NCBI GenBank assembly: GCA_016946835.1
Contig: JACVTC010000054.1
Coordinates: 1,042,501-1,096,863, forward strand
Origin: Neocallimastix lanati (nom. inval.)
Taxonomy: Eukaryota > Neocallimastigomycota > Neocallimastigomycetes > Neocallimastigales > Neocallimastigaceae
Reading direction: 5' to 3'
Length of the DNA: 54,363 nucleotides
Under the pieces are notes generated by a model. It searched no databases. It saw only the letters and a program-made list of their open reading frames with translations, and had not been told where the DNA came from. Shown piece after piece: positions 27,939 to 52,908 of the stretch; within the stretch, counting starts at the first letter, position 1; each line of letters starts with the position of its first letter. The position numbers and the translations under genes were made by a program.

Positions 27939-28740
27939 GGTTCAAGCGCTACGACAATTCACTTAATAAAAATTATATATATTCTAATTCAAATATATAT
28001 AATTCTTTATTATGAATCCGCTCTTGAGTTTGTACCTTCTATAAAAAAAAAAATTTTAAAAAAACAAGGCTCAAGCGCTAGTCAACCACTTCTAGTAGAA
28101 GTGGTTCGCTCTTGATAAACCTCGATTTCCTTAAATTCAAAATTTCAGGTTTAAGCGCTACGACAATTCATCTAGTAGAAAATATATCAAATACTTTCTT
28201 TATAAACTACTGAATCCGCCTTAAGTTTGTACCCAAAATTTTTCTTTATAATAATTCAGAAAAGATTTAAGATTTGGTTCAAGCGCTAGTCAATTCTATC
28301 TTCTTTGTTTTACTTTCTTTTTAATTCCATAGAATCCGCCTTGAGTTTGTACCAAACTTCTTTCCTTATTTTTGATCTTTATAGTTGTTTGGGGAGCAAG
28401 CATATGATTAAAACACATTTTTGAGAAATCTTTATTATTAGTACTAAAATAAACAAAAATAATATTAAAATTTCAATTAATCATTTTTTTAATAAAATAA
28501 TGTATTTCAAGGTAGTTTGGGTATAATTATAATTAAAATTTCATTATATTGAAATTTTATGGTATATAAACATCATCAAGAAAATACAAAACTATTCTAT
28601 TAATTTCATAATTAATAAAACTTAAAAATTCAGTTTTTTAATAATAAAAATGATTAATATAAAAATTACTTTATAAAAAATAGTTCGTGCTTTTATTTCA
28701 TAATTAAAATAAAATATTTATGAAATGAAAGCACGAAGAA
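27939..28740 (+). ncRNA. Structured repeat element, copy 1 (subfamily I)
   Basis: The element starts right after a T-tract plus AG. Four tandem hairpins follow: A 27937-28037, B 28066-28123, C 28146-28236, D 28273-28356. Each has an outer stem (GGT/ACC), an inner stem (TTCAAG/CTTGAG, or TTTAAG/CTTAAG in C), an asymmetric internal loop (CGCTACGACA or CGCTAGTCA facing CCGC) and an apical stem. Hairpin B has an 8-bp apical stem, ACCACTTC/GAAGTGGT. Next come block E (28391-28433, GGGGAGCAAGCATATGATTA), hairpin F (28501-28587, centred on AATTTCA/TGAAATT) and hairpin G (28682-28740, TTCGTGC.../GCACGAA). No open frame spans it. Strand is taken from U-G pairs, which only hold on this strand. Family and function unknown. 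Confidence 0.78.
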
Positions 28741-29946
28741 AAAAATAATTTTGGAATAATATTATCTTTTTTATATATTTTTTTTTTTTTTTTTTTTTTT
28801 TTGTTTTTACTTTTTTATATTATATATCATATAATAATTTTTTTTAATAATCAATTATAAATATTCAAAAACATTATTAATATAAATTAAAGTAATGAAT
28901 AATTCTATTTTTAAACTATTAATATATTAAAAATCTTTGTTTTTATCATAATGAATTATTATAATAAATTTAATTATTTAAATTATACAATAAATCTTAT
29001 TTATTATAAAATAATTTTTTTTTATAATTAAAAATTTTTTAATTCATTATTTACTTAACAAAAATTATTGAATAGTTAATTATAGTAATATCTATATATT
29101 TATATTAAAAATGATTTATGTTGAGTAGTTTTAATATGCTTAATACATATATAATGTATTAATTTAAATTATATAACAATGAAAAAATTATAAATATTAG
29201 TAATAATGCTAATTATTTATTATTAGAAATTTATTAATTAAAAGAGGGGAAAAAATAATGAATATATAATTTTAAGAAATATGTATTATATTAATAAATA
29301 AACATGTTTATTCATAAAATATTTTAAAAAATTATCTTCTCCTTGTAATAGCTAATTGACTTTAACTATTATAATGTAATAATATATTAATATATTATGT
29401 TTTCAAATTTATATAATTCTAGTAAATATATATATATAAATATGGTAATTAAGATTTTACTATATTATTATTCTTTATCTCCTTTCATTATAAATATAAT
29501 CTCTTAATTTAATAACAATTAAAATCATTAGTAACGAATATAATATGAATAATTTAATTCTATATTTATTTGGTAATTCATCAAAAAATGAATTATTTAC
29601 TATTATATTGTAAAATTAAAGTTCACTCCTGAAGATTATAAACTATTATTACTAAAAATTGTAATAGTAGATTATAATCCTACTAATACTGTAATGTTAT
29701 TTTTACAAAATTATTAGATTTTTTTTATAAAATATTTCGATCATTATTTATAATTGTAAGAATTGTAAAATTGTAAATAATTTAATTTCTTTAAATTAAA
29801 ATAATTATATTTTATATATTTAATACACATATATTTAATACACATATATTTAATACACATACATATATTTATAATTTTTTTTTTTTTTTATTTTTTATTT
29901 TTTATTTTTTTTTTTTTGCATTTTTATTAATCATTTTTTTTTTTTA
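28741..29946. other. Spacer between structured copies 1 and 2
   Basis: AT-rich, with four 17-bp units of the type ATATATTTAATACACAT at about 29815-29870 and T-tracts running into the AG that precedes copy 2. No gene seen. Confidence 0.6.
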
Positions 29947-30750
29947 GGTTCAAGCGCTACGACAATCATTTAATAAAAATCATATATATTCTAATTCAAA
30001 TATATATGATTTTTTGTTATGAATCCGCTCTTGAGTTTGTACCTTCTATAAAAAAAAATTTAAAAAAACAAGGTTCAAGCGCTAGTCAACCACTTCTAGT
30101 AGAAGTGGTTCGCTCTTGATAAACCTCGATTTCCTTAAATTAAAAATTTCAGGTTTAAGCGCTACGACAATTCATCTAGTAGAAAATATATCAAATACTT
30201 TCTTTATAAACTACTGAATCCGCCTTAAGTTTGTACCCAAAATTTTTCTTTATAATAATTCAGAAAAGATTTAAGATTTGGTTCAAGCGCTAGTCAATTC
30301 TATCTTCTTTGTTTTACTTTCTTTTTAATTCCATAGAATCCGCCTTGAGTTTGTACCAAACTTCTTTCCTTATTTTTGATTTTTATAGTTGTTTGGGGAG
30401 CAAGCATATGATTAAAACACATTTTTGAGAAATCTTTTTTATTATCATAAATAAAAAAAAAATAATTAAAAATATTATATATTTAAAATAATTTTTTTTT
30501 AATAAAATATTGTATTTCAAGGTAGTTTGGGTATAAAATATATTAAAATTTCATTATATTGAAATTTTATGGTATATAAACATCATCAAGAAAATACAAA
30601 AGTTAATAAAAAATATTATTTAATTATTTTTAATAATAAAAATGATAAATATAATAAATTTTCATATAGTTCGTGCTTTCATTTCATAATTACAATAAAA
30701 TTAATTATTATAATTATTTTCCTTTATTTTCGAAATGAAAGTACGAAGAA
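29947..30750 (+). ncRNA. Structured repeat element, copy 2 (subfamily I)
   Basis: Very close to copy 1 (802 and 804 bp; starts 2,008 bp apart). Informative differences preserve pairing: the apical stem of hairpin A is AATCATAT/ATATGATT here against AATTATAT/ATATAATT in copy 1, a T-A to C-G swap on both arms. In hairpin G the upstream arm has TTTC where copy 1 has TTTT, both compatible with G opposite, and GTAC opposite GTGC keeps a G-U pair. Hairpin B restores GGTTC where copy 1 has GGCTC. The open frame 30569-30994 crosses the F and G hairpins and is judged spurious. Confidence 0.78.
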
Positions 30751-30840
30751 AAAAAAAATTTTTTTTGAAACAATCTTTTCTCTTTTATACTTTTTAAAAA
30801 TTTTAATTATTAAATCAAAATATTACTATTCTATAAAATA

Positions 30841-30878
<38 letters not shown>

Positions 30879-31540
30879 CATTTAAAAAATATATTTTCTT
30901 AAATAATATTAGATATAATAATTTTTATTTATCAATTATGAAAGTAATTAATTTAAATAAAAATTTTAATTACTCAGCATATTATAATGTTTAAAGAATT
31001 ATTGTTAAATGTATTAAATTTATTTAATAATTACTATTATTTTATATTAAATCACTATTTTATTATCATAATTATTTAAATTTTAAAAATGCTTAGTCTT
31101 TTTAATTATACTAAAAGATGTTTATTTTTATATTTAATATAAATTATCCTATCAAGCTTTTGATATATTTATATTAAGCAATGAAATTAGTAATAAATGT
31201 TGATTAATTATTGTTTAATATCATATAAATGATATATTAATTTATCATTTTGGCCAATATATATATTTCTAACTTTTTTTTTAAAAAAAAAATATTTAAG
31301 ATAAGATTTAGTGGATCTTTATTAATATATTAATGGTATTTAAATAAAACATAAAATTTTTTAAAAAAAGTTTAATTTTAAAAATTTTATTTGTGAATAA
31401 ATATATAAATATTAAATTTTTTCATAGTAATCCATGTAATTAATATTACTAAATTTTTAATTGCAATTAATATATACAATTACTAAAAAACTATTGGCTA
31501 CATTTTTTTAGAAAGTTAATTTTATTTAGTGATTTAATAG

Positions 31541-31572
<32 letters not shown>

Positions 31573-32054
31573 AATCAAATTTTTTTTCCACATTTTTTTT
31601 TTTTTAATTATGTATAATTTTATTATATCATTTTATTTTTTTTTTTTTAAAATAATTTTATATATTATATTTAACTATTATATATAATTTTATTATATTA
31701 TTTTATATTATTTTATTTTTTTATTTAAAGTATTTTGCATAATTTTGTAAAAACAATAATATTTAATTTTATTATAAATCACTTTATATAATTTTATTTT
31801 TTTGGAGTTGGTTAATATTGTAAAATTCTTTATAATATTAACTAATTATTATTATTTTAATTTTTTTTTTATAATCATTATATTAACTTTAAAATTATTA
31901 TATTATTTAAAGGTTTATAATTTATGATATTGTTTATTATATTTATTTATTTATTTTAAAAAAATTACTGTTATGTAATAATTTTTTTTTATGTAATAAT
32001 AATAATAATAATAATAATATATATATATAATATTCAATTATAAATTTTTATTAT
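30751..32054. other. AT-rich spacer downstream of copy 2
   Basis: Low-complexity sequence with several T-tracts. It resembles the other copy-to-copy spacers only weakly. No gene seen up to the acetyltransferase stop. Confidence 0.55.
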
Positions 32055-32585
32055 TCAATTTTCAATTCTTTTAATGATTTTTGCTGGATTACCAGCAACA
32101 ACAACGTTGTCTTCAACATTTTTAGTGACTACACTACCAGCACCAACCACTGAATTTTCACCGATAGTTACTCCTGGTAAAATGGTAGCTCCAGCTCCAA
32201 TCCATGCGTTTTTTTTTATATGAACTGGTTTACAGGTGATGATTTGACGTTGTTTTAAGTCATGATTATTAGAAATAAGTTGAACATTGGCAGCAATCAT
32301 AGTATTATCATCAATTGTGATACCACCACCACCCATTATTAGGCAACCAGAATTTACATATACATTATCACCAATAGTTACATTACTGAATCTTGTACCA
32401 GAAACGGGAGCCTTAACTACTGAATTTTTTCCAAGTTTTCCTTCGAAAAGTTTTTGCATTAATTCGTTATATTCAGTTGTAAATGGCATTGCATGATTAT
32501 ATTTAAAAATAAGTATTTCTAAATCTTTAGCTTTTTGAATTTCTTCAGGAGATTGCTTTGTTAAATCAATTCTTATTTCTTCCAT
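32055..32585 (-). CDS. Hexapeptide sugar/maltose O-acetyltransferase-like protein
   Basis: An intronless 176-residue frame. After an N-terminal helical segment (residues 12-52, [20 protein letters not shown]) it is a left-handed beta-helix of hexapeptide repeats ([57 protein letters not shown]). The ISNNHDL loop supplies His-108, the expected catalytic base for transfer of acetyl from acetyl-CoA to a sugar hydroxyl. It ends with the conserved [13 protein letters not shown]. Length and plan match the bacterial maltose/galactoside/NodL acetyltransferase group (about 180-200 residues). Lack of introns and bacterial-type family suggest horizontal acquisition, common in rumen fungi; this is inference. 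The acceptor sugar is unknown. No signal peptide, so probably cytosolic. Confidence 0.93.
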
Positions 32586-32763
32586 TTTAAGTAATTATAT
32601 CTTATACCAATAAATCTATTTATCTATATAAGAATATATGTATAAAAGATTTTCGATACAAAAAATAAACAAAAAAAAAATAAATCAATATTTAATTGCT
32701 AATAAAATATATATATATATATTTATTCGTTTATTTTTTTTTTTTTTTAATATTTTAATATAA

Positions 32764-32829
<66 letters not shown>

Positions 32830-34036: not shown

Positions 34037-34080
<44 letters not shown>
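32586..34080. other. Intergenic region between acetyltransferase and giant ankyrin gene
   Basis: Contains (AAT)n at about 32768-32862 with a CAACAGCAACAACAAC insert, a short GC hairpin (CCGCAA at 33422-33427, TTGCGG at 33433-33438, followed by T7), and a ~45-bp T tract at 34040-34084 abutting the giant gene's stop codon. No gene seen. Confidence 0.6.
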
Positions 34081-34084
<4 letters not shown>

Positions 34085-37000
34085 CTAATGATTACAATCA
34101 ATTAAGCAATCAATCATATTTATATTTCTTTTCTTAAAGGTATAGTTCAAAGGAGTTTCACCATGACTTGTTTTTTTATTAATATCTGCTCCATATTCAA
34201 TTAAATATTTCACTAATTCTTCATTATTATGTTCAATGGCAATAATTAAAGGTAAACGTCCAAATTGATCCTCTTTATTAACATCAGCGCCACATTGAAT
34301 TAAATATTTTGCTGTAGTCAGGTAGTCATTTTGAAGGGTATTAATTAAATAAGTTTCACCAAAGGAATTTTCTTTATTAATATCCACACCACTACAATTC
34401 ATAAGATAGTTTATCATATCTTTATTATTATAACTGACTGCCATAGATAAACAATTTTCTTTATTTATATTTGCACCATTATTAATTAAATTCTTTAGCT
34501 TATCAATAACATTATCCTTTATTGAAATTTTTAGAGGGGTTAATTCTGCACCACTACCAATTAAATATTCTATTATATTTAAATTTTTGGGTATATGTTG
34601 AATAGCTATGGTAAGAGGGGTATCACCAAGGTTGTTTTTCTTATTTACATCAGCACCATTACCAATTAAATATTTCAAAATATTCAAATTATTAATTTCA
34701 ATTGCTGTATATATTGGTGTATCACCATTTTGATTGTCCTTTTGATTAATGGAGGCTCCATGTTCTATTAAAAATTTTATCAAAGTTAGGTTACAAGTTC
34801 GTACAGCAACCTTTAAAGGTGTATTACCATGTTGACCTTCTTTATTAATGTCTGCTCCATTTTCTATTAAAAATTTCACCATATCTAAATAATTGATTTC
34901 AATGACAGCATTGAGAGGGGTGATGCCATGCTTATTTTCTTGATTGATATCAGCACCCTGTTCTATTAAGTATTTGATCAACTTTTCATTTCTCATTTTA
35001 GCGGCTATAATTAATGGAGTATTTCCATTTTTATCTTCTTTATTAACATCAGCTTTTAATTGAATTAAAAATCTAGTCATATCCAAATAACCGTTTTTAA
35101 TGGTACTAATTAATAAGGTTTCTCCATGTTTATTTTCTTTATTAATATCTGCTCCATGTTCAATTAAATATTTTACCAAGATTTTATTATTATAATCCAC
35201 AGCAACAGATAAAGGTGTATCACCTGATTCATTAACTTTATTAATATCAATGCCGTGATTAATTAAATATTTTACTTTATTCACAATATTATAGGATATA
35301 GACTTATTTGTTTGAAGGGCTAAAATATCATTACTGGAAGAATTTTCATTAATATTAGCACCGCTGCCAATCAAGTATTTTAAAATTTTCATATTTTCGA
35401 ATTCTTGTTGAGTGGCTTTAACGAATGGGGTACTGTCATCTAGTGATGAATGACTTTTCTGATTTACGTCAGCCCCATTTCCAATTAAATATTTAATTAT
35501 ATTAAAATTATTCACTTCTATTGCTACCTTTAATGGTGTAATTCCATTTTTACATTCCTTATTGACATTAGCTCCAAGTTCAATCAAATATTTTATCATT
35601 TCAAAATTATTGGCTCTAATAACAGCATTTAATGGGGTATTTCCTGAGACATTTTCCTTATTAATATCAGCGCCACATTCCATTAAATATTTAACCAAAT
35701 ATTTATTTTTAAATTCGGCTGAAATAATTAATGGTGTATCTCCGTTGTTATCCTCCTTATTGACATCTGCTCCACATGTTATTAAATACTTAAGCATATC
35801 CATATAGCCATTTTTAATAGTACTAACTAAAAATGTTTCTCCTGATTTATTAACCATATTAATATCTGCTCCATGATCGACTAAATATTTTACAACTAAT
35901 TTATTATTATAATTAACAGCAACAGAAAGAGGGGTTTCACCATTTGTACTGGATTTATTGATATCTACGCCATTATCTACTAATTCTTTTACTCTATCAA
36001 GTAGATTAAGACAAGTCAATTTGGTTTCATTTTCTGATGTATTGGTCATAATAGCACCACTACCAATCAAATATTCGATAATGCCCACATTTTTTGATTG
36101 ATATTTAATCGCCTTACTTAATGGGGTAGATCCATTGAATGGATTCTTTTTGTTGACATCCGCTCCATTACCAATTAAATATTTTATAAGCTTTAAATTC
36201 TCATTCTTAATGGCAATCTTTAAAGGCGTTTTACCCTTTTTATTTTCCTTATTAATATCGGCTCCACAATTAATTAAATATTTCATGATGTACTTATTAT
36301 TACGTTTGGTAGCTAAAATTAAAGGTGTATTACCATTTTTATCTTCTTCATTAACATCAGCACCCCCACTGACTAAATATTTAATTAAATTCATATTATC
36401 GACATAGTTATTTTCGATAGCAACAATTAAAGGGGTCTCTCCGTTTCTATTCTTTTTATTTATGTTGGCACCATGATTAATGAAATATTGAGCAAGAAAT
36501 TCATTTCCAGTTTTAATGGAATAAATTAATGGGGTATCCCCTCTTTGATCCTCTTTATTGATATCTAAACCATAATTAACTAAATAATTCAACATTTTTG
36601 TATTGTTGTCGCAATTTAAATCTTTCAAGGATAAAAATAGTTCACTGAAATTAATTTCTTTATGGATATTTGCTCCAGACTGAATTAAAAATTTTACCAT
36701 TTCTAAATTATTAGCTTTAATAGCTAATTTTAAAGCTAAATTACCTTGATTATCTTCTCTGTTGACATCTGAACCATTATTAACTAAATATTGTATTATA
36801 TTAGTATTATTAAATTCTGATGCAATAATTAATGGAATTTCACCCTTTTTATTTTTCATATTGAGATCTGCCCCATGATCTATTAAATATTTAATAATAG
36901 TTTCATTTTGAAGTTCAGTGGCTACAATTAAGGGTGTGTTACCCTTTTCATCTTTTTTATTAACATTAGCTTTCTGATCAATTAAATAATTAATCATAGG

Positions 37001-40000
37001 AATATTTTCAACTCTAATTAAATAAATTAATAATGTATTTCCTCTACCGTCAATATTCTCTATATTAACATCGACATAATCTGGAATTAAAACTTTAAAT
37101 AAATCAATTCTATTCTTATCAATTATTTTTTTTATTACACACTTATCAATATCACCATTAATCCAAGTTTGAAGGATACATTTGAATAAAGAAATGGAAG
37201 TTATTTCGTGATCTAATATATAATCAAAAACAGTTTCACTTTTTTTATTACATTTGTTAACATCATATCCCTTTTGAATGAAATCATTTATTCTATTAAT
37301 TTTTTCTTCATCAGAATAATTTTGCATTTTAATTAATGTAAAGAGTGGCGATTCACCTTTTTCATTAAATATATCTGTATTCAATTTATTACTATTAAGA
37401 AGTATTGAAATAATTTTTTTATTTCTTATATAGAGTGAAATATCAATTGAGGAATAACCGCGTAACATATTATTTCGATGATAATTAACATTTGCACCTA
37501 CGTTAACTAAATACTTCACTGCTTCTATATCTTCTTTAATAATAGCATATTGTAAAATGCTATATCCATTATGATCTAATTTATTAACATTGAATGAATG
37601 AATCAATTCTCTTAAAATTTCCTTATGATTTAATATATACAACACCAATAATGGCTTACAATAATATATTGAAAAATCAATGAAATTCTTATTTTTATTC
37701 TTGTAATTGTTACCATTTTCATTCAATATTATAGACTTTATTAAATCTACATGTTTTTGATCATTATCATCATCTTCTATAAAAGATGAATAATTATTTT
37801 TAATTATTCGATCAAGCTTTATTGATTTATAATGATTAAAAATTTTTTGTAAAAGAATATAGTTTCCATTTTCAATAGAGGTTTGTAATAATGAAGGATT
37901 GCTAAGAATATTTTTATTATTACCATTTTTATTAGTAAATTTTAATAAATATTCAAATATGTCTTGTCCTCTACCATAATATTTTAAAAGAGTTGAAGAA
38001 ACAATAATAGGTGATTCCCCATTTTTATCTTTAATAGTTAAATTCGTAGGAATACTTTTATCGTTTTCAACAATATACTTGATAAGCTTTAGATGTCCTA
38101 TCTTGATAAGTACATTCAATATTAAAGCTTTATATTGAGAACTTTTAGTTTTAATGCTATATAAATGGAAAGAATCGGCTTTTTCTAAGGATTCTATATT
38201 TAATAATTTTTTTATAAATAATCTCATGGAATCTATATTTTCTATTTTACTCGAAGATAATAAAACTCTTTCATAAATTTTTGAATCTAAACTATTATTT
38301 CTTAGCAAACTATCAAAAATATAAGTTATCATAAAAGTATTTTGGCAACGATTAGCGGATAATAATATTTTTTTGAAATTTATTGAGGCAAGGTTTAAAT
38401 ATTTAGGATTATATCTTTTACTTTTGAAAGCTTCTTCCATGATAAATTTACTTTTTGAAATATCATTTGTTTTACTGGCAGCCATTAATATTCCTTCAAT
38501 TGTGTCATTGATATCATTATATTTTAAGGTACGATGATTTATAATTTTTTTGGCAAAATATTTAAATAGAGATTCATTCTCAATTTGATTTATAATCAAT
38601 AATACCTTTTTAATGTCAAGATTTTTATTAAAATTGAAAGATCTTTGATTTAATAGGCTTTCAGTGATAAATTCTATTATATAGATATTTTCTATCTTAA
38701 CTGTTTCTAATATAATATTTTTTACGTTATTATGATTAAGGTTAAATTGTCGGCAGTTAAATAGTTCCCGGATAAAGCTTTTATAAATATTAACATTATA
38801 AATTTGTCTTAAAGTAAATAATACTTTATGAATATTCATATGACTACAACTCAATGATTTATTGGAAAATGCTTTTTTAATAATCAAATTTATAAAGTCA
38901 TAATCATCATTTATATATACACTTTGACTCATGATGTATAATAATGTATCAAATCTATATTTTCTAAAATCAAAACTTTCATGATTCACTGACTTTTTAA
39001 TAAATGATTTAATGAAATGGCTACATTTATAGTCAAGATCAAATGTTCTCATTATTTTTATTGGAAACTCCATGATGGATAATAATACTTTTTCAAAGTT
39101 TATAATTGTAAAATTAAATGATCTATGGGCCATTAAGCTATCGATAATTAATTCCATGGAATTAAAATATTTTTCATATTTTGTATTTCCTATTTCAAGT
39201 TTACTATTTTTATCAGATTCGCTATTTTGGTCTCTATTTAATTCTTCATAATTATTATAATAATAAGTTTCTATATCCTCTAAGAAATTATCTATAATTT
39301 CATTCAATATTACTTCAAAATTGATTATTTTTAAATCAAATGAATCATTATTTATTATAAAATCAATATTATTAGCAAAATACGAAATCCAATCTTCTTT
39401 TTTATTTTTTAAAACATTTTTCAAGGAAATAACTTTAAAATCAAGCAATTTATGATCTAACAGCACTTTAATTGCTTCAGTATTATTATGATTAATGGCC
39501 TCATCAAACATTTTATATATTACTTCATTATTATTAGAAATTAAGCAATTTCCATGATCATAATAACTAAAGAATAATTTTAATAACTCAGCATCGTATT
39601 TTGCAGCATTAATATACCATTCATTTGCTATTGATTTCTTTGGATTTTTTTCCAAAATTGTTCTTACGACGTCTTTCATACCATTGGAGATCAGTGAATT
39701 CATTAATTCTGATGTTATTTCAAAACCATGATTTAACAGATAGGTAAGATGACCTTTTGTGAAATATTTTTCTTCAATTATCAATTTAAGAATATTATAT
39801 TTATTTTCAATAGTATAGTTTACTTCAGCACCATTTTCTATTAAGAAATCAATTAAGGCATAATCATTTTTTGAAAAAGCAAAGAATAATGGTGTCTCAT
39901 AAATATTAATATAATAATTTAAGTTTTTATATTGAGATATTATAAATTTTATCATTTCAAAAGAAATATCATTTTTAATTGAATAAATTAAAATATCGAA

Positions 40001-41842
40001 ATCATTCGTAGTAAAATAGGATAATTGTATTTCATTTTTAGATAGATAATCATTTAATTCGTTTATATTACCAATATTTATTTTTTCTAATATGGTCTTC
40101 AATTGTTCATTTTTTGTGTGCAAATTATTTATAAATTTATCATTTATTGGAATCTCCAAGTTTGAATTTTTAATACGATTAACAATTATAGATTGCTTTT
40201 CCTTCTTATTTTCAGAACTGTCATTATCTAATATCTTAAAAAATTCATTTAATATCAAATTTTGATCTCTTGAATCAATTTTTAGTAAATCAATAATTAG
40301 ATCAAAATTATTATTCGTTAATGCAACACTATAAAGAGATTGGTTAAATTTTATTTTATTTTTTTCATGATGTTTTTTAGAAATAATAGATTCTAATTGT
40401 TGATCTGATGTTTCTCTTTTATTTTCATATAAAGATAGTAAATTCAAAATAAAAAGAGTATCACTGGTAGCATATTTAATGATGATTTTTATGAGTTCAT
40501 TATTATTATTTTCAATTAGTTTAATTAAGAAATCGATATTTGAATGAATATCAATATTATGATGTAAAATATATTTTAAATTTTCAGTATTTAATAAGTT
40601 ATCTTCATATAACCAAGTTAACATGCAACCATGATTGATGTTTGCACCTACTTTTATTAAAAACTCGGAGATTTTAAATTTATTTTGTGAAATAGCATAA
40701 TAAAGAAAAGATCTTTCTTTATTTGTTTGTTTTTCCTTAATAATTATATTTAAATCAGTATATTGACATTCTTTAATAATATAATTAATTACTTCAATTG
40801 AAGAATTATTTTCGATGGCAAATTTCAACATATCTTCGTCGATATGATATTTAATATTAAAATCATCTAAATGAATTAAATTTTCACTAATATAATTTTG
40901 AAGTTGAATTAAATCGCAAGATTTAATTAAATTTAAAATAGTATCATAGCAAGAAAATAATTTAATAATACTATTTTTTAAGTTTTTATTTTCAATTTTA
41001 TTTATGAAATCATTTTTATCACTTTTATTATTTATAACTGCATAAATATCTTTTAATATGATTTTATTTTCTCTTATATCGTTATCATATAGAATAGAAA
41101 GGGCATTATAATTATTACTGCCAACCGTTATTTCATACATATGTTTATCAACTGAAACTTTAGTTTTTTCGCTATTAATAAGCTTTTTTAAATTTTTACT
41201 AGACAATGATTTTTTATATTTATATATATCGAGCAATTTTAAAATAAAGTTATTATTATAAATAAAGTAACTAAAAATTTGACTTAAAAAATAATTTGCA
41301 TTATCTACATTATAGGTAATATTAATATTGTTAATATTATTATTCCTATTGATTGGAGGATTATAGATTAATCTATCAATTAAATTTGAAGTTATTTTAA
41401 TCCCCTTGTCCAATATATATTTTGAATTTTTTTTATTTAAAATTTTTTTAATAACAGAAGGTTTTATATAATTAATATCAGCGCCATATTTAATTAAAAT
41501 ATTGGCTATTTTGAAATTATTTTTTTCTAAAGCCAAAGCTAAAGGTGGTTTTAAAAAATTGTCATTGGAATATTCATTTAATGTTTCAAATCTATTAAAC
41601 TCATATCCATAGTTTAAAGTACTATACTTAAAATGATTTATAATAAATTCTATCATTTCCACCGAAACATCATATTCTTCAATACAGTATTTTAAAAAGT
41701 CTTTACTAAAATTTTTTGTAAAATATTCTATTTCGATATTGTATAATTTAATAATATTTTTTAATTCATTTACTTTATCATTTTTAATTAATTCAGATAT
41801 AATTTTAGGCTCAATTGCCCTTTTCCCAAATCTTCTATCCAT
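34085..41842 (-). CDS. Giant ankyrin-repeat protein, 2,585 residues
   Basis: A single intronless frame from ATG at 41842 to TAG at 34085. Residues 1 to about 830 hold three ~290-residue blocks of divergent ankyrin-like sequence, each starting like ELIKNDKVNELKNII and later ALALEKNNFKIANILIKYGA. Residues about 836-1225 are a different repeat of about 45-50 residues with a SFNF..INFEKVLLSI...FIK..LLN pattern. From about residue 1410 to the end are canonical 33-residue ankyrin repeats (GNTPLI.A...N...IKYLI..GADVNKE), again in higher-order blocks of about 270 residues marked by NIIEYLIGSGA. There is no signal peptide, membrane span or enzymatic motif. It is likely a very large binding scaffold; partner unknown. 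The many repeats make assembly collapse or expansion possible, though the frame is intact. Confidence 0.92.
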   Translation of the reverse strand: MDRRFGKRAIEPKIISELIKNDKVNELKNIIKLYNIEIEYFTKNFSKDFLKYCIEEYDVSVEMIEFIINHFKYSTLNYGYEFNRFETLNEYSNDNFLKPPLALALEKNNFKIANILIKYGADINYIKPSVIKKILNKKNSKYILDKGIKITSNLIDRLIYNPPINRNNNINNINITYNVDNANYFLSQIFSYFIYNNNFILKLLDIYKYKKSLSSKNLKKLINSEKTKVSVDKHMYEITVGSNNYNALSILYDNDIRENKIILKDIYAVINNKSDKNDFINKIENKNLKNSIIKLFSCYDTILNLIKSCDLIQLQNYISENLIHLDDFNIKYHIDEDMLKFAIENNSSIEVINYIIKECQYTDLNIIIKEKQTNKERSFLYYAISQNKFKISEFLIKVGANINHGCMLTWLYEDNLLNTENLKYILHHNIDIHSNIDFLIKLIENNNNELIKIIIKYATSDTLFILNLLSLYENKRETSDQQLESIISKKHHEKNKIKFNQSLYSVALTNNNFDLIIDLLKIDSRDQNLILNEFFKILDNDSSENKKEKQSIIVNRIKNSNLEIPINDKFINNLHTKNEQLKTILEKINIGNINELNDYLSKNEIQLSYFTTNDFDILIYSIKNDISFEMIKFIISQYKNLNYYINIYETPLFFAFSKNDYALIDFLIENGAEVNYTIENKYNILKLIIEEKYFTKGHLTYLLNHGFEITSELMNSLISNGMKDVVRTILEKNPKKSIANEWYINAAKYDAELLKLFFSYYDHGNCLISNNNEVIYKMFDEAINHNNTEAIKVLLDHKLLDFKVISLKNVLKNKKEDWISYFANNIDFIINNDSFDLKIINFEVILNEIIDNFLEDIETYYYNNYEELNRDQNSESDKNSKLEIGNTKYEKYFNSMELIIDSLMAHRSFNFTIINFEKVLLSIMEFPIKIMRTFDLDYKCSHFIKSFIKKSVNHESFDFRKYRFDTLLYIMSQSVYINDDYDFINLIIKKAFSNKSLSCSHMNIHKVLFTLRQIYNVNIYKSFIRELFNCRQFNLNHNNVKNIILETVKIENIYIIEFITESLLNQRSFNFNKNLDIKKVLLIINQIENESLFKYFAKKIINHRTLKYNDINDTIEGILMAASKTNDISKSKFIMEEAFKSKRYNPKYLNLASINFKKILLSANRCQNTFMITYIFDSLLRNNSLDSKIYERVLLSSSKIENIDSMRLFIKKLLNIESLEKADSFHLYSIKTKSSQYKALILNVLIKIGHLKLIKYIVENDKSIPTNLTIKDKNGESPIIVSSTLLKYYGRGQDIFEYLLKFTNKNGNNKNILSNPSLLQTSIENGNYILLQKIFNHYKSIKLDRIIKNNYSSFIEDDDNDQKHVDLIKSIILNENGNNYKNKNKNFIDFSIYYCKPLLVLYILNHKEILRELIHSFNVNKLDHNGYSILQYAIIKEDIEAVKYLVNVGANVNYHRNNMLRGYSSIDISLYIRNKKIISILLNSNKLNTDIFNEKGESPLFTLIKMQNYSDEEKINRINDFIQKGYDVNKCNKKSETVFDYILDHEITSISLFKCILQTWINGDIDKCVIKKIIDKNRIDLFKVLIPDYVDVNIENIDGRGNTLLIYLIRVENIPMINYLIDQKANVNKKDEKGNTPLIVATELQNETIIKYLIDHGADLNMKNKKGEIPLIIASEFNNTNIIQYLVNNGSDVNREDNQGNLALKLAIKANNLEMVKFLIQSGANIHKEINFSELFLSLKDLNCDNNTKMLNYLVNYGLDINKEDQRGDTPLIYSIKTGNEFLAQYFINHGANINKKNRNGETPLIVAIENNYVDNMNLIKYLVSGGADVNEEDKNGNTPLILATKRNNKYIMKYLINCGADINKENKKGKTPLKIAIKNENLKLIKYLIGNGADVNKKNPFNGSTPLSKAIKYQSKNVGIIEYLIGSGAIMTNTSENETKLTCLNLLDRVKELVDNGVDINKSSTNGETPLSVAVNYNNKLVVKYLVDHGADINMVNKSGETFLVSTIKNGYMDMLKYLITCGADVNKEDNNGDTPLIISAEFKNKYLVKYLMECGADINKENVSGNTPLNAVIRANNFEMIKYLIELGANVNKECKNGITPLKVAIEVNNFNIIKYLIGNGADVNQKSHSSLDDSTPFVKATQQEFENMKILKYLIGSGANINENSSSNDILALQTNKSISYNIVNKVKYLINHGIDINKVNESGDTPLSVAVDYNNKILVKYLIEHGADINKENKHGETLLISTIKNGYLDMTRFLIQLKADVNKEDKNGNTPLIIAAKMRNEKLIKYLIEQGADINQENKHGITPLNAVIEINYLDMVKFLIENGADINKEGQHGNTPLKVAVRTCNLTLIKFLIEHGASINQKDNQNGDTPIYTAIEINNLNILKYLIGNGADVNKKNNLGDTPLTIAIQHIPKNLNIIEYLIGSGAELTPLKISIKDNVIDKLKNLINNGANINKENCLSMAVSYNNKDMINYLMNCSGVDINKENSFGETYLINTLQNDYLTTAKYLIQCGADVNKEDQFGRLPLIIAIEHNNEELVKYLIEYGADINKKTSHGETPLNYTFKKRNINMIDCLIDCNH

Positions 41843-42845
41843 TTTTAATTATGCTTATATGTTTTACTAATTAATAAATAATATAAAATAAAATATGATA
41901 TTTCTAAATAAAATAATAAATTAATTCAAAAAAAAAAAAAAATAAATAAATAAATTGTTTAATAAAATATTATAATATATTTTTATAATATTATTTTCTT
42001 ATTTATTATATTTTATATATTTATTTATATATTTATTTATATATTTATTTATCTATTTATTTATTTATTTATTTACAATGTAGATTGAATTATTTTCCAT
42101 TTTTTTCTTCTTTATTTTATAAAACAGATTACATTATAAAAAAAGAAAAAGTTCTTTTTCTTAGTAGTAAATTATTACTACTATATTATTTTTTTTTATT
42201 ATTATTTTTTTTAATTTTAATATTTTTTTCTTTTTAAATTTTTAATATTTCTTGAATCTCATTTTCCATTTTTGGAAATTTTTTCTTTTTTACAAATTTC
42301 TGATATTATTTTAAAGTTGTAAAAACTTTCATATATTTCTTTATATTGAAAATATATAAAATATATTATAATTATATACCAATAAAATAAAATATAATAT
42401 ATTTTGTTTAATATTTATTAATTTAATTTTAACTATTTTATATATATTATAATATATTTTATACATTTATCTTTAAAAATATTTTATGCTCGATTAAAGA
42501 ATTAATTTATTGCAGTATATAGTTATTATATTAATAATATATGTAAATTATATAGATTACATTTGTACTTTTTTAATTTATCATTCCTTTTTTTTTATTT
42601 ACTTAATGGTCCACAAGTAATTATATTCTAATATATTGTAATATATAATTTAATATATAATTTAATATATATGTTAAAGTATATTATGAATATATAATAA
42701 TATGTTATAAGTATTTTAAAAAATCAAAGCCATATTTAAAATATTTAAAAAAAATTTTTTTCTGTATATTAAATAAAAAAAAAAAAAGGAAAATATAAAA
42801 GATTAATAATAAAAAAAAAGTTACATTTACTGTCATATACATAAT
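41843..42845. other. AT-rich region upstream of the giant gene
   Basis: About 300 bp before the giant gene's ATG are two back-to-back perfect hairpins: AAGAAAAAG/CTTTTTCTT at about 42143-42162 and TAGTAGTAA/TTACTACTA at about 42162-42183. Otherwise low-complexity AT; no gene. Confidence 0.5.
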
Positions 42846-42849
42846 TAAT

Positions 42850-43175: not shown

Positions 43176-43272
43176 AAAGAATAATATTTTATTTAATAAT
43201 AAATACGGCATTAATTTAAATGAAATATATTTGTTAAAATTATAAACCATATCAGTTGTTTTTAATGTTTAT

Positions 43273-44861: not shown

Positions 44862-45888
44862 GGTTCAAGCGCTACGACAATTCATTTAAATACATTAATA
44901 TTAAAATCATATAATTATTTTAAATCAAATAATTTATACAATTTTTATTATTATTAAAAAATAAAATAAAAAATAAATAAAATATAAAATAAATATGAAT
45001 CCGCTCTTGAGTTTGCACCTTTAAAATGTTTAATGATTTTAAATATTCCTTTATTATAATAAGGAATAAATTTTACTTTTTGGTTTATTGAAATAATTTA
45101 AAAAAAAATAAGGTTCAAGCGCTAGTCAATCAATTTATTTTATGATCCGCTCTTGTTTCACCTTCTTCTTCTTTTTTAAATGAAAATTTTAGGTTTAAGC
45201 GCTACGACAATTCATTCAGTTGAAAATATTTCAAATATTTTCTTTTTTTTATTTCACTTTAATTAACTAATGAATCCGCCTTAAGTTTGTACCCAAAATT
45301 TTTTTATTCCATCATTATTATTTGTTGTAAGAAAGTTTAAAATTTGGTTCAAGCGCTAGTCAATTCCTTGATTAGCTTTTCTATAATTCTTTACTATAGG
45401 AATCCGCCTTGAGTTTGTGCCAAATTTCTTTCCTTTTTATCCTTTTTTTCTTCAAAAGAAAATAATTTTATTGGGGAGCAAGCATATGATTAAAACACAT
45501 TTTGAGAAATCTTAAATTTAATTTAAAGATATATAAAAAATATATAGTATAAAATATGCATAAGATATATATAAAACATTATAATAAATTTAAAAAAATT
45601 AAAAAAATAAAAAAAATAAATTAAATAATATTTGTATTTCAAGGTAGTTTGGGTATATTTAATAAAAATTTCATTTTGTTGAAATTTTTTGGTATAAAAA
45701 CATCATCAAGAAAATACATTAAATTCAAATTATTTTTTAAATTTCTTTTATTACTACTATTAATATGCTTTTAATAGTAAAATGTTTTTTTATTATTGAT
45801 TTTAAATTTGTTTTAAATGATGCTTTCACCTCTTAATTATAATAAATACTTATTATATTTTATTTTTATGAAGTGAAAGCACGAAGAA
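44862..45888 (+). ncRNA. Structured repeat element, copy 3 (subfamily II)
   Basis: Longer than subfamily I because the apical part of hairpin A and the linkers between A and B and between E and F have grown. Order A-B-C-D-E-F-G is kept. Hairpin B has ATCA/TGAT as apical stem where copies 1-2 have ACCACTTC/GAAGTGGT: different bases, same pairing. Hairpin B's outer stem is AAGGT/ACCTT. Hairpin G has TTTCAC/GTGAAA where copies 1-2 have TTTCAT/ATGAAA. This copy alone lacks the poly(T)-AG seen at 16-40 bp upstream of copies 4-6; it has TTTTTTTTCGTTTAAA there. Confidence 0.77.
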
Positions 45889-46963
45889 AAAAAATTATAA
45901 ACAAATCAATCTTTTTTATACTTTCTCTTCAACTACAATAATAATATTATCTATTAAAATATATTATAATAATAATTTAAATAATGATAATAAATTTTAT
46001 CATTTAATAAATAGTAATATATTTACTGTTTATTTTACTAAATTTATTTTTATATTTTTAGATAAATTATATTTTTTTTATATAATTAATTTATAATATT
46101 TTTTATTATAATTTTGGTTGGATAATTTAAAAATTAATTAAATTAACGATAGAGTAATAATGTATATATTATTAAAATAAATTTATTAATTTTTTTCTCT
46201 TTTAAAAAACTTTAATACTGAATTAAAATAATGATAAGTAGTATTTTTTTTTTTTTTTTTTTTTTAAACTATAATGAATTTGTACTTAATAATATATTAC
46301 TTTTCTATATATATATTATAATTTGTATATGCTTTTTTTTTTTTTTTTTTTTTTTTTAATTTTGTTATTTTTATTTTTATTTTTTATTTTTAAATTATAA
46401 ATCCATTAATACTTATAATTTTAACACAAAATTATAAACTCTTTTTTTTTTTTTATTTTTAATTGTTAAATTTTATTTCATAAATTTAAATTTCATTATT
46501 ATTATTATTATTATTATTATAACTATTACTGTTATTATCATTATTATTTTTATTTTATTATTATTATTATTTATTATAATTATAATTTTATGACCAATTA
46601 AAATTTCATGAATTATGATATGTATATTGCACTAAATTTATTAACTATATACATATATAATAATTTTTTAATTAAGAATTAAAATCTTGTTTATTGTAAT
46701 TTTAATTTGTTTAAATAAATGTAAATTATATAAAATAAAATATTTTATGAATATGATTAAATATTTTTATAAATATAAATAGAATTATTTTATAAAATCA
46801 TTTACAAAGAACTTATTATTAATAAATTTTTAATAGAATATTATGTATTAAAATATATTTACAATCCACAAATAAATAAAATAAATAAAAAATCATATTA
46901 CACCCACTTTTTTTTTTTTTTTTTTTTTTTTTTAGGTTTTTATTTATTTATTATTATTTTAAA
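45889..46963. other. Spacer between structured copies 3 and 4
   Basis: Begins with a tail similar among copies (CAATC then TTTTTTATACTTTCTC). It includes GTTGGATAATTTA, related to TTGGTTGGAGAATTTAG downstream of copies 4 and 5, so the repeat unit extends past hairpin G. No open frame. Confidence 0.6.
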
Positions 46964-47958
46964 GGTTCAAGCGCTACGACAATTCATTTAAATATATTAA
47001 TATTAAAATCATATAATTATTTTAAATCAAATAATTTATACAATTTTTATTATTATTAAAAAATAAAATAAAAATAAGTATGAATCCGCTCTTGAGTTTG
47101 CACCTTTAAATGTTTAATGATTTTAAATATTCCTTTATTATAATAAGGAATAAATTTTACTTTTTGGTTTATTGAAATAATTTAAAAAAAAATAAGGTTC
47201 AAGCGCTAGTCAATCAATTTATTTTATGATCCGCTCTTGTTTCACCTTCTTCTTTTTTAAATGAAAATTTTAGGTTTAAGCGCTACGACAATTCATTCAG
47301 TTAAAAATATTTCAAATTTTTTCTTTTTTTTTTTTTGTTCACTTTAATTAACTAATGAATCCGCCTTAAGTTTGTACCTAAAATTTTTTTATTCCATCAT
47401 TATTATTTGATGTAAGAAAGTTTAAAATTTGGTTCAAGCGCTAGTCAATTCCATGACAATTTTCTATAATTCTTTATTTTAGGAATCCGCCTTGAGTTTG
47501 TACCAAATTTCTTTCTTTTTTATCCTTTTTTTCTTAAAAAGAAAATAATTTTATTGGGGAGCAAGCATATGATTAAAACACATTTTGAGAAATCTTAATT
47601 AAAGATATATAAAAAATATATAGTATAAAATATGCATAAAATATATATAAAACATTATAATAAATTTAAAAAAATTAAAAAAATAAATTAAATAATATTT
47701 GTATTTCAAGGTAGTTTGGGTATATTTAATAAAAATTTCATTTTGTTGAAATTTTTTGGTATAAAAACATCATCAAGAAAATACATAAAATTCAAATTAT
47801 TTTTTAAATTTCTTTCATCATTACTACTATTAATATGCTTTTAATAGTACAATGTTTTTTTATTATTGATTTTAAATTTGTTTAAAATGATGCTTTCACC
47901 TCTTAATTATAATAATTATTTATTATATTTTATTTTTATGAAGTGAAAGCACGAAGAA
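46964..47958 (+). ncRNA. Structured repeat element, copy 4 (subfamily II)
   Basis: Same order of conserved islands as copy 3, 995 bp. In hairpin C the outer stem is TTTTAGGT/ACCTAAAA, fully paired, where copies 3 and 5 have an A-C mismatch (ACCCAAAA). Preceded by a long T tract, AG, then GTTTTTATTTATTTATTATT and AAAGGTTC. Hairpin D keeps ATTCC/GGAAT around a changed loop. Confidence 0.77.
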
Positions 47959-49564
47959 AAAAAAATTTAAAGAATAATCAAGCCTTTTTATATTTTCTCT
48001 AAATACTTTTTTTAAATAATTCTAATAATAATAATATCTATTAAAATATTTTAATAATAATAATTTAAATAATAATAATAAATTATCGTATTACAATAAA
48101 TTAAATATATATATATTATATATATTAATATTCTTTTTCATAAATTCATTTTTAAAAAATTAATTAATATTTTTTTTTTTAAAATAAAAATTTATTAAAA
48201 ATATTTTTATTATTGTTTTGGTTGGAGAATTTAGTATTAATGAAAATCATGAATAATATCATGAATAATTTATAATTCCTTATATATATATATATATTTA
48301 TATCAAAAATTTTCTTATATTTAATTATTTTATATATATATATTTATATCAAAAATTTTCTTATATTTAATTATTTTATATATATATATTTATATTAAAA
48401 ATTTTCTTATATTTAATTATTATTTTTAAGATTTGTTTATAATTACTATTAGAAGTTTTACAATTTCATTAAACTAAAAATATATTCGAAATTGAATAAA
48501 AATTTTTAGTTTTTATCTAGTATTATTGATTATAAATTTCTACTTTTATTTATATTAATTATTTATAATAATTATTGTTTTTTCTAATACTAAAACATTA
48601 AAAGTATTAATTCCTTTATAATTATAAATAAAAAAAAAGAAATACAAAATAAATATACTTTTTAATAAAAATGTAAATACATTTTAATAATAGTTAATCC
48701 AAGTAAAAAAGAAAATAAAATGAAATTAATAATATTATTATTTAAGAAATAAGTATATTTAGGTATTTCTAATTTTAATATTTTAAAATGAACAATTTTT
48801 TCTTTATTATTAAAATATAATTCTAAATTTATTATTAATTATATTAAATTTTTTTGATAATATAATTATAATTACATTATATTTTAATAAAACAAAAATC
48901 AAAAATTATTAAAAATAGAAATTATTATAATGTTATCTTATCGCTACTATTTAATATATATATTTGAAATAAAAATATTATAAATTTCATTTTATTTCTT
49001 ATTTACTTTTATTATTTATTCTAAAAATGTAATTAATAATTTTATTTAAAAATATCCTCATTTAAAAATTAAAATTTAAATAAGTATATTTTATAAAAAT
49101 TCAATTAAATAAATTAATTAAAAATTTTATAATTATATAAAATAATTTAATAATTAACAATATAAACTATTAAAAAAGTAAAAAATTATAATATCATCTT
49201 TAAAAATATTAAATTTTTAAATATTAATGATATATATTTATAAAAAAAATTTATATAACAATTCAATTACTATTATATGATATCTATTATTCAAATAATA
49301 ATTTAATTTTTTTAAATAAAACATATTTTAATATATTTATACATATATAAATATAATTATTTTATATAATTATATTAATTCCATAAAAAGTTCAATTATA
49401 GTTTAAAAATACTTTCAAAATATATAAATATTTTAATAAAAAAATAAATTCTCATTTTAATTTATGATTATTATACACAAATAAATAATATTAATTAAAA
49501 TTATAAAGTCATTTACACATTTTTTTTTTTTTTTAGGTTTTTATTTATTTATTATTATTTTAAA
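47959..49564. other. Spacer between structured copies 4 and 5
   Basis: Longest complete spacer. Contains a 46-bp tandem repeat x3 (TATCAAAAATTTTCTTATAT at 48301, 48347 and, with one change, 48393) and the block ATGTTATCTTATCGCTACTA at 48930 that recurs near the right edge of the window. No gene seen. Confidence 0.6.
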
Positions 49565-50585
49565 GGTTCAAGCGCTACGACAATTCATTTAAATACATTA
49601 ATATAAAAATCATACAATTATTTTAAATCAAATAATTTATACAATTTTTATTACTTTAAAAATAAAATAAAAAAAAAAATGAATCCGCTCTTGAGTTTGC
49701 ACCTTTAAAATGTTTAATGAATTTAAATATTCCTTAATTATAATAAGGAATAATAAATTTTAATTTTTTTAATTTATTGAAATAATTTAAAAAAAAATAA
49801 GGTTCAAGCGCTAGTCAATCAATTTATTTTATGTTCCGCTCTTGTTTCACCTTCTTCTTCTTTTTTAAATGAAAATTTTAGGTTTAAGCGCTACGACAAT
49901 TCATTCAGTTGAAAATATTTCAAATATTTTCTTTCTTTATTTTCACTTTGATTAACTAATGAATCCGCCTTAAGTTTGTACCCAAAATTTTTTTATTCCA
50001 TCATTATTATTTGATGTAAGAAAGTTTTAAATTTGGTTCAAGCGCTAGTCAATTCCATGTCAATTTTTTGTAATTCTTTATTTTAGGAATCCGCCTTGAG
50101 TTTGTACCAAATTTCTTTCCTTTTTTCCTTCGTTTCTTTTTTACTTAAAAAAGAAAATAATTTCATTGGGGAGCAAGCATATGATTAAAACACATTTTGA
50201 GAAATCTTAAATTTAATTTAAAGATATATAAAAAAAATATAGTATAAAATATGTATAAAATATATATAAAACATTATAATAAATTTAAAAAAATTAAAAA
50301 AATAAAAAAAATAAATTAAATAATATTTGTATTTCAAGGTAGTTTGGGTATATTTAATAAAAATTTCATTTTGTTGAAATTTTTTGGTATAAAAACATCA
50401 TCAAGAAAATACATAAAATTCAAATTATTTTTTAAATTTCTTTTATCATTACTACTATTAATATGCTTTTAATAGTACAATGATTTTTATTGTTGATTAT
50501 ACATTGGTTTATAATGATGCTTTCACCCCTAAATTATAATAAATATTTATTATAATATATTTTTATAAAGTGAAAGCACGAAGAA
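49565..50585 (+). ncRNA. Structured repeat element, copy 5 (subfamily II)
   Basis: Close to copies 3, 4 and 6. Hairpin B reads ATCA...TGTTCCGC here, so its apical stem is one base weaker than in the others (TGATCCGC). Hairpins A, C, D, block E, F and G are otherwise conserved. Followed by the same tail (AATAATCAAGCCTTTTTATA) as copy 4. Confidence 0.77.
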
Positions 50586-51825
50586 AAAAAATTTAAAGAA
50601 TAATCAAGCCTTTTTATATTTTCTCTAAATACTTTTTTAAATAATTCTAATAATAATAATATCTATTAAAATATTTTAATAATAATAATTTAAATAATAA
50701 ATTATTGTATTACAATAAATTAAATATATACATATTATATATATTAATATTCTTTTTTCATAAATTCGTTTTTAAAAAATTAATAATATTTTTTTTTTTA
50801 AAATAAAAATTTATTAAAAATATTTTTATTATTGTTTTGGTTGGAGAATTTAGTATTAATGAAAATCATAAATAACAAATATATATATTAAAAAATTCTA
50901 TTATTTTTTTTTAATAAAAAAAAAGAAAATATTAATATTAAAAATTTATTATTTATAAAAAGCTTTGTTAATTAAATTATAATTATTAAAAGTAGTACAA
51001 TTTCATTAAATTCAAAATGTTGTTTATAATTGAATTAAAAATTTTGTTTACTATAATATTAATTATAAATTTCTACTTTTATGTATACTAATTATTTATA
51101 ATAATTTTTTTTTCTAATACTTTATTTATAATTAAATAAAGAGAAAAATACAAAATAAATTAATAAATATTTTTATAATAGATAATAATATTTTTCTTTC
51201 ATATATTAAATAGTAAATATAATATTATGATAATTTCTAATTTTAAGAATTTATAATTAAATAAAAAGAGAAATACAAAATAAATTATTAAATATTTTTA
51301 TAATAGATAATAATATTTTTCTTTCATACATTAAATAGTAAAGATAACATGATAATTTCTAATTTTAAGAATTTATAGTAAACAATATTAAATTAAATTT
51401 TTATTTCTAAATTTATTTTTCATTGCATAAAGTGTTTTGATAGTACAATTATTTAATAAATAATAATATAAATGCTGAAATACTAAAAATTGGAATATCA
51501 TCTTTAAAAATATTATTATTTTAATTATTTATATTTATAAAAAAAACTATTTATAAAGATCAATTATTATTGATTTTAAACGTTCGTAAAATATGTATTA
51601 TTAATTTTATAATTCAAAAATAAAAATATATATTATTTATTATAATAATTTAAAAATATGAATAATTTTATAAGAATATTCATTCTATAAAATTTCAATT
51701 ATAATTAAAAAATACTACCACAATATATAAATGATTTATTAAAAAAATATATTCTCCATTTAATTTATTATTATTGTTATTATACACTATTATATAATAT
51801 TAAATAAAAACTATAAAGTTACTAC

Positions 51826-51861
<36 letters not shown>

Positions 51862-51889
51862 GTTTTTATTTATTTATTATTATTTTAAA
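50586..51889. other. Spacer between structured copies 5 and 6
   Basis: Contains a direct repeat of about 124 bp (about 51125-51250 and 51250-51378; shared word ATAATAGATAATAATATTTT), and TTGGTTGGAGAATTTAGTAT shared with the copy 4 spacer. Ends in a long T run, AG and GTTTTTATTTATTTATTATT. Confidence 0.6.
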
Positions 51890-52908
51890 GGTTCAAGCGC
51901 TACGACAATTCATTTAAATACATTAATATAAAAATCATATAATTATTTTAAATCAAATAATTTATACAATTTTTATTATTTTTAAAAAATAAAATAAAAA
52001 ATAAATAAAATATAAAATAAATATGAATCCGCTCTTGAGTTTGCACCTTTAAAATGTTTATTGAATTTAAATATTCCTTAATTATAATAAGGAATAAATT
52101 TTAATTTTTTTAATTTATTGAAATAATTTAAAAAAAAAATAAGGTTCAAGCGCTAGTCAATCAATTTATTTTATGATCCGCTCTTGTTTCACCTTCTTCT
52201 TCTTTTTTAAATGAAAATTTTAGGTTTAAGCGCTACGACAATTCATTAAGTTGAAAATATTTCAAATATTTTCTTTTTTTATTTTCACTTTGATTAACTA
52301 ATGAATCCGCCTTAAGTTTGTACCTAAAATTTTTTTATTCCATCATTATTATTTGATGTAAGAAAGTTTTAAATTTGGTTCAAGCGCTAGTCAATTCCAT
52401 GACAATTTTTTGAAATTCTTTATTTTAGGAATCCGCCTTGAGTTTGTACCAAATTTCTTTCTTTTTTTCCTTTTTTTCTTAAAAAGAAAATAATTTTATT
52501 GGGGAGCAAGCATATGATTTTAACACATTTTGAGAAATCTTAAATTTAACTTAAAGATATATAAACAATATATAGTATAAAATATGTATAAAATATATAT
52601 AATATTATAATAAATTTAAAAAAAAATTAAAAAATAAATTAAATAATATTTGTATTTCAAGGTAGTTTGGGTATATTTAATAAAAATTTCATTTTGTTGA
52701 AATTTTTTTGGTATAAAAACATCATCAAGAAAATACATAAAATTCAAATTATTTTTTAAATTTCTTTCATCATTACTACTATTAATATGCTTTTAATAGT
52801 ACAATGATTTTTATTATTGATTTTAAATTTGTTTGAAATGATACTTTCACCTCTTAATTGTAATAAATATGTATTATAATTAAATTCTATGAAGTGAAAG
52901 CACGAAGA
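51890..52908 (+). ncRNA. Structured repeat element, copy 6 (subfamily II)
   Basis: Complete order A to G. Hairpin C outer stem is fully paired (TTTTAGGT/ACCTAAAA), as in copy 4. Block E carries the only change seen in its core (GATTTTAACAC for GATTAAAACAC). Hairpin G has a single mismatch (ATACTTTCAC opposite GTGAAAGCAC), so this copy may be starting to drift. Confidence 0.75.

Follow-up and report, generated by a model that had tools for sequence, protein, structure and literature searches.

A multi-copy family of predicted large structured RNA genes built from repeated hairpin modules in Neocallimastix lanati

Six related elements and their architecture

The stretch of DNA analysed here, hereafter the window, comprises 54,363 nucleotides (nt) at the end of contig C490 (JACVTC010000054.1, positions 1,042,501-1,096,863) in the assembly GCA_016946835.1 of the anaerobic gut fungus Neocallimastix lanati (nom. 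inval.). It holds six copies (W1 to W6) of an element about 1,000 nt long that can be taken, with high confidence, to be a gene for a large structured RNA with repeated hairpins. The six copies lie exactly where the first-pass annotation of this DNA had placed them, and the motifs on which they are built occur far above the levels seen in shuffled sequence: 24 occurrences of GGTTYAAGCGCTA with up to two mismatches (shuffled mean 0.39, maximum 4), 14 of CCGCYTTRAGTTTGTACC with up to three (0 in shuffles) and six of GGGGAGCAAGCATATGATT, again with up to three (0.02 in shuffles). Searching the 199-Mb genome (762 contigs) with patterns and with DNA queries brings the family to 21 copies at three places, that is, W1-W6 in the window, S1-S5 and P1-P3 on C37, Q2 and Q3 on C490, Q4-Q7 on C761 and Q1 on C301, all copy counts being lower bounds (40 of 229 first-look candidates were scored in one genome search). 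These genome searches gave no further copy, and the matches found elsewhere were lone motifs or AT-rich linker: motif matches standing alone outside the clusters came to 22 among the 100 listed of 113 places (7 in all for a control pattern) and, in other motif searches, to 5/17, 5/24 (control 10) and 1/46.

A copy comprises a terminal hairpin (F), the D/E domain, a C box (lost in one copy) and an array of at least four copies of one hairpin module. The islands shared by the copies are real, but there are more than the seven first counted, namely eight module arms, a C box, D and E boxes and two F arms. Modules are named M1 to M4 in plus-strand order. If, as argued below, the minus strand carries the gene, each window element has the 5' end of its RNA on the right, with M4 first and M1 last; the predicted order from 5' to 3' would be F near the start, E/D, C, M4, M3, M2, M1, extra modules in some copies, AATAAA and an A-tract.

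The module starts with a basal helix, GGU/ACC, which is paired in 90/90 cells of a 30-module alignment (whether ACC pairs instead with GGU in the following module was weighed by eye only, and this supported helix was preferred). On one side it is followed by a 6-nt insert (3 nt in M2), above which stand a helix UCAAG/CUUGA, a bulge of 1-2 nt and CG/CG. The internal loop is strongly asymmetric and nearly invariant in sequence, with 7-8 nt opposite one purine; it is mostly UGUCGUAG in odd modules and UGACUAG in even ones, the two types alternating across the four canonical modules. At its end, the module has an outer helix and a loop that are free in sequence, with loops of up to 120 nt. A search model built from 30 modules (R2) recovers, at E up to 0.5, 84/84 canonical modules together with seven strong (E <= 5e-9) and three weak extra ones; five of the 100 rows in this search list repeat modules on C301, and one (L116) is a partial chance match. 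P2 and Q4 thereby reach six modules and P3 seven, while Q1 and Q5 have perhaps five and six. The extra modules bring new compensatory changes, such as a different stem-1 sequence in P2 and CCCAT/ATGGG in P3. Other parts are less constant: the C box, which probably folds into a hairpin too (as judged by eye), is not recognisable in P3 and divergent in several Q copies, and the F arms of P1 carry a different sequence.

Base pairing, conservation and strand

Covariation strongly supports the base pairing. In the alignment of 30 of the 94 modules (A8, consisting of 25 modules plus five extra ones), 95.8% of 471 cells pair on the minus strand versus 86.1% when partners are shuffled and at most 47.1% in slid controls, and 53 cells have changed on both sides (19.8 in shuffles, at most 14 in slid controls). 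In the 25 modules (A5), 88.7% of cells pair versus 80.7%. An alignment of 93 matches (A6, in which three rows are modules read twice) contains 76 distinct rows and shows double changes at 12/17 pairs, versus 6.8 in shuffles, and 105 doubly changed cells, versus 28.0 in shuffles and at most 28 in slid controls. The outer helix of M1, M2 and M4, which was tested on 10 representatives and separately on all 21 copies, is Watson-Crick in 149/210 cells of the representatives (124.3 +- 5.0 in shuffles, 0/5000 of which reach it). The F helix, in its best register of seven, has 103/121 Watson-Crick cells in 11 representatives (88.6 +- 3.2 in shuffles, 0/5000); this analysis used 19 of the 21 copies, P1 and S2 being left out as their arms were not registered. 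The F hairpin of W1 alone reaches -25.5 kcal/mol with a z-score of -9.1 (plus-strand fold). The covariation that the first-pass annotation had proposed to look for is therefore strong when module and F-helix tests are set against shuffled partners, and its claims that the islands are complementary in pairs and belong to a large multi-hairpin RNA family have held up well.

Conservation follows the same anatomy. Module arms are retained in all 21 copies, and those of M3 are identical in 18/18 aligned copies with a free loop between them (the alignments A1, A7 and A2 hold 15 of the 21 copies each, A3 17 and A4 18). Among the nine most similar tandem copies, which are near-identical, 13/312 island columns carry substitutions versus 113/737 elsewhere (Fisher p 7e-8) and one is gapped versus 110, a contrast that is partly there by construction because the islands were defined from the family itself. 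That no open frame spans the islands, as first stated, is true of the window copies for frames of at least 120 codons, with a single exception of 143 codons (30563-30994) overlapping the D/E-F region of W2; outside the window, several islands of P1 (on C37) are crossed by an open frame of 150 codons. These open frames look like chance, since loops and linkers vary in length without regard to multiples of three, and protein exons were rejected on this variation modulo 3 and on the chance nature of the P1 frame. The latter matches a single JGI protein (P0121; 91 amino acids from a 971-nt contig, 86/88 residues identical), which shows family sequence in another record, probably from a close strain; a protein search with a second chance frame gave no match.

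As for the strand, the first-pass annotation had read the elements on the plus strand, an orientation that is not supported by wobble pairs, the TATA box and the poly(A) signal. Because an A.C on one strand reads as G.U on its complement, the plus-strand excess of A.C points to a minus-strand RNA: on the plus strand the 76 rows have 4 G.U, 34 A.C and 71 other mismatches, and a separate count gives 3 G.U and 11 A.C in 1218 cells. On the minus strand, there are 17 G.U, 2 A.C and 18 other mismatches in the 30-module alignment, and 13 G.U versus 4 A.C in the F helix of 19 copies. Consensus folding favours the minus strand in four of five alignments, and the supported structure has the lower energy there in 17/25 modules. 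The folding energy of whole copies is lower or equal on the minus strand in 21/21, which was not used as evidence because z-scores are alike for W1 on both strands.

Signals at both ends of the elements agree with this. A TATAAA or TATATAA lies 32-41 nt before the F arm on the minus strand in 21/21 copies (a looser form, counted without control). A stricter pattern, [AG]TATAAA, has its end 26-34 nt upstream of the F arm in 20/21, and in a fixed 11-nt window it is present in 17/21 copies versus 18/651 control windows; the copy that lacks it is P3, which carries TATATAA at that place. On the plus strand, no TATA box is found at a fixed place before M1. Downstream of the last module, AATAAA occurs within 120 nt in 20/21 copies versus 1009/2490 control windows, and a run of at least nine A in 19/21 versus 382/2490. 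Taken together, the G.U preference, TATA box, AATAAA and A-runs argue for genes that very likely lie on the minus strand and are probably transcribed by RNA polymerase II, and a plus-strand gene was rejected on the same wobble pairs and signal placement. A TATA box at about -30, a poly(A) signal and a fixed strand, all found here, are what a long noncoding RNA (lncRNA) gene of polymerase II would have, with start and end sites as predicted from these signals. The longest U-runs in the seven predicted transcripts that were checked measure 6-12, which makes polymerase III unlikely. A tRNA-derived short interspersed element, or a polymerase III gene of another kind, was also rejected, on these internal U-runs and on a scan (with bacterial settings) that found no tRNA in the window.

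A U6 small nuclear RNA gene sits inside the C761 cluster (L126, C761:194571-194679). The genome has six U6 matches, four of them above the cut-off (48 of 20569 candidates scored), and these 4/4 genes carry a ATTATCCAATCA-like element at -94 to -95 with 0-2 mismatches, 3/4 also having TATAAA at -26 to -30. This element was considered as a promoter element that the RNA genes might share with U6: with at most one mismatch, ATTATCCAATCA is present in 10/21 of them, which form one clade and have it at varying distance (6/660 control windows).

Several observations pull the other way, for structure as for strand. M3 is without covariation signal (56/70 versus 57.0 in shuffles), which is because its arms do not vary, and M1 alone is not above shuffles once plus-strand G.U is allowed (2654/5000 reach it). 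Six of the seven single modules tried fold no clearly better than shuffles (z -0.3 to -2.3), the exception being M2 of W1 (z -3.5, plus-strand fold). D/E does not settle the strand: its consensus energies are poor on both (-1.47 and -1.52), and its varying pairs have 5 G.U to 1 A.C in the minus-strand fold and 3 to 2 in the plus-strand fold. The plus strand is favoured by consensus folding in A3 and by the energy of the supported structure in eight of the 25 modules, and a rival helix, YAAGC/GUUUG, fits 312/315 plus-strand cells, albeit without compensatory change. Finally, pairing is counted on the very sequences that gave the structure, and these sequences are related, the copies being treated as roughly ten separate lineages, which means that copy counts do not amount to independent events.

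Distribution of the copies and rival readings

The end of the window (53946-54363) is 97.6% identical, over 421 nt and in the same direction, to the start of C37 (L009 1-417), and C490 and C37 are therefore probably parts of one cluster of 16 copies, which suggests that the contig end is an assembly break inside the RNA cluster. The window also contains two big ankyrin-type genes (8442-12065 and 34085-41848; 1207 and 2587 codons), the first covered by a Pfam scan and the second assigned by similarity to the first. Relatives of both, with 92.7% and 70-81% identity, are found in the C761 block, where RNA copies sit between and beyond them and the first ankyrin gene is inverted; judging by this content, C761 represents an old duplication that took in part of the C490/C37 block. 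In the RNA tree, P3 pairs with Q4 (support 1.0) and P2 with Q1/Q5 (0.997). The shared ankyrin genes and these pairings imply that the copies most likely descend by block and tandem duplication rather than by dispersal. A subtelomeric repeat was considered and set aside: the contig end looks like the assembly break just described, and TTAGGG arrays occur on other contigs, with none on C37, C301 or C490 among the 100 listed of 152 (a list that did not reach C761).

No known RNA class had been recognised in the first-pass annotation, and none was found here, Rfam giving no match at the gathering score either for the window or for seven further loci. For W1 and P3, Rfam gave only weak microRNA (miRNA) and other chance-level matches, and OLE, ROOL and GOLLD, for which its library holds models, are absent from the matches up to E 10. 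Viral and prokaryotic collections yielded only lone arms: a single 5' arm in 9 viral and 79 genome stretches, and a single 3' arm in two viral ones. A sequence resembling the 3' arm lies within 250 nt of 11 of these 88 5' arms at up to 6/18 mismatches (two at 5, none fewer), no D box or C box is present in the viral contigs searched, and the best module score in 90 viral/genome loci is 17.1 bits (E 0.2), on which grounds viral or prokaryotic relatives were rejected. Eukaryotes rarely have large RNAs with so much conserved structure, and we know of none from Neocallimastigomycota, for which the listings of open-access literature that were consulted contain no such RNA family. This would be a new RNA family, with no relative found in these searches, although its broad kind, the large structured noncoding RNA, is already known.

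Known systems resemble the family in part. Like OLE, ROOL and GOLLD of bacteria and phages, it would be a long noncoding RNA with many hairpins and conserved islands, but it is fungal and nuclear, consists of copies of one module, has TATA and poly(A) signals and finds no match in Rfam. Sponge RNAs of the CsrB/RsmZ type also have many copies, in variable number, of one hairpin motif per RNA, whereas here the motif is different, the host eukaryotic and the 5' part unique. LncRNAs of the roX and Xist type show repeated stem-loops in a nuclear-encoded long RNA; unlike them, this family has 21 gene copies with nearly identical islands, and we know of no sequence common to both.

What might such an RNA do? 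Each one has four to seven modules, that is, several copies of one putative site, as expected for a sponge or scaffold RNA, and a near-invariant internal loop that is repeated along the RNA beside an outer helix of free sequence has the anatomy of a repeated binding site. The conserved internal loops are most simply read as binding sites, and the RNA would then be a multivalent platform for several copies of one protein, acting as scaffold or sponge, the likeliest role among those considered and one that we put forward tentatively, at slightly less than even odds. The reading as a whole, namely multi-copy minus-strand genes for a structured RNA, probably made by RNA polymerase II and serving as a multivalent protein platform, has in our estimate a probability of about 0.5, with transcription, polymerase, protein binding and function being what we infer from sequence. 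A single genome already supplies 21 copies of the gene together with a module definition, a likely strand, a putative promoter and the search model R2, and if the modules bind protein or each other this would be a new natural multivalent RNA.

The same anatomy could serve other ends. Repeated modules with nearly invariant asymmetric internal loops, in alternating odd and even types, might pack together, within one RNA molecule or between several, into a particle that needs no protein, as GOLLD and ROOL do; these two and OLE form homo-oligomeric complexes according to one report (PMC12286853). The sequence is very AT-rich and has no Rfam match to these RNAs, and we regard such an RNA-only assembly as unlikely. 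No likelier is the related idea of a large ornate eukaryotic RNA whose tandem new module lets it assemble into a particle of defined form, made of RNA alone or of RNA and protein. The conserved arms, of about 23 nt and set around free loops, could also be the products of Dicer-like cleavage, and the F hairpin of W1, with about 20 continuous pairs, and weak miRNA matches (mir-3747, E 0.0084; mir-1252, E 0.016) fit a small-RNA precursor. The scores are nevertheless far under the gathering cut-offs (26.3 versus 63, 29.5 versus 70), the module arms are interrupted by conserved unpaired inserts of 6 and 7-8 nt, in place of the near-continuous duplex of a miRNA precursor, and the F arm sequence varies, all of which makes this rather improbable.

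That the element acts as DNA is less probable still. The arms are inverted repeats, which could form cruciforms or paired protein sites at an origin, recombination site or boundary, and the plus strand has no wobble preference in the 1218 cells counted, but pairing in DNA does not predict that the minus-strand exceptions should be nearly all G.U (17 to 2), TATA, AATAAA and A-tract flank the element, and its complementarity comes in blocks with unequal spacers around loops as long as those described above. Least probable of all, and by our estimate very improbable, is an origin as transposon or virus debris, or as a decayed protein gene. The family is multi-copy and has retroelement genes nearby, yet a transposable element should have dispersed copies, and the 21 found in 199 Mb (a lower bound) are confined to three places, two of which share the same two ankyrin genes in agreement with the tree pairs P3/Q4 and P2/Q1/Q5; in addition, the module arms are retained in all 21 copies, and loop and linker lengths vary modulo 3.

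Coordinates and neighbouring genes

Table 1. Predicted RNA gene copies of the window and their parts (window positions; scores are those of single modules)
Feature	Position	Predicted strand	Remark
RNA gene copy W1	27939..28776	-	whole, TATA box to last module
W1 TATA box	28770..28776	-	
W1 terminal hairpin F	28684..28737	-	RNA 5' end on minus strand; covariation
W1 D/E hairpin domain	28501..28588	-	
W1 C box	28391..28432	-	
W1 module M4	28276..28353	-	first in RNA; 69.4 bits
W1 module M3	28148..28233	-	60.7 bits
W1 module M2	28068..28121	-	60.3 bits
W1 module M1	27939..28036	-	last in RNA; 68.4 bits
RNA gene copy W2	29947..30790	-	TATA 30784-30790
W2 modules	30280-30357, 30152-30237, 30072-30125, 29947-30043	-	
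W2 D/E; F	30511-30598; about 30669-30748	-	
RNA gene copy W3	44862..45921	-	TATA 45915-45921
W3 modules	45346-45421, 45192-45293, 45112-45162, 44862-45019	-	M1 weak alone, E 0.0047
W3 D/E; F	45633-45718; about 45819-45886	-	
RNA gene copy W4	46964..47993	-	TATA 47987-47993
W4 modules	47431-47504, 47273-47378, 47196-47246, 46964-47104	-	
RNA gene copy W5	49565..50619	-	TATA 50613-50619
W5 modules	50035-50108, 49881-49982, 49801-49851, 49565-49703	-	
RNA gene copy W6	51890..52941	-	TATA 52935-52941
W6 modules	52377-52450, 52223-52324, 52143-52193, 51890-52047	-	M1 weak alone, E 0.0047

Two tandem repeats lie just downstream of W1 on the RNA strand, one with 4.0 copies of 75 nt (27137-27436) and one with 5.2 copies of 80 nt (27454-27867), both at 99%. 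Elsewhere in the window there is a retroelement of the long interspersed element type at 13120-17055, whose endonuclease and reverse transcriptase occupy separate open frames, and two near-identical 352-codon open frames on the minus strand (18599-19657 and 23830-24888), in the first of which Pfam detects ankyrin repeats. A hexapeptide acyltransferase of bacterial type (32055-32594) shares 66-67% identity with those bacterial proteins that were listed by name and, among named proteins, is closest to those of Piromyces finnis (77%) and Neocallimastix 'constans' (76%); other gut fungi have it too, and it looks like an old horizontal transfer.

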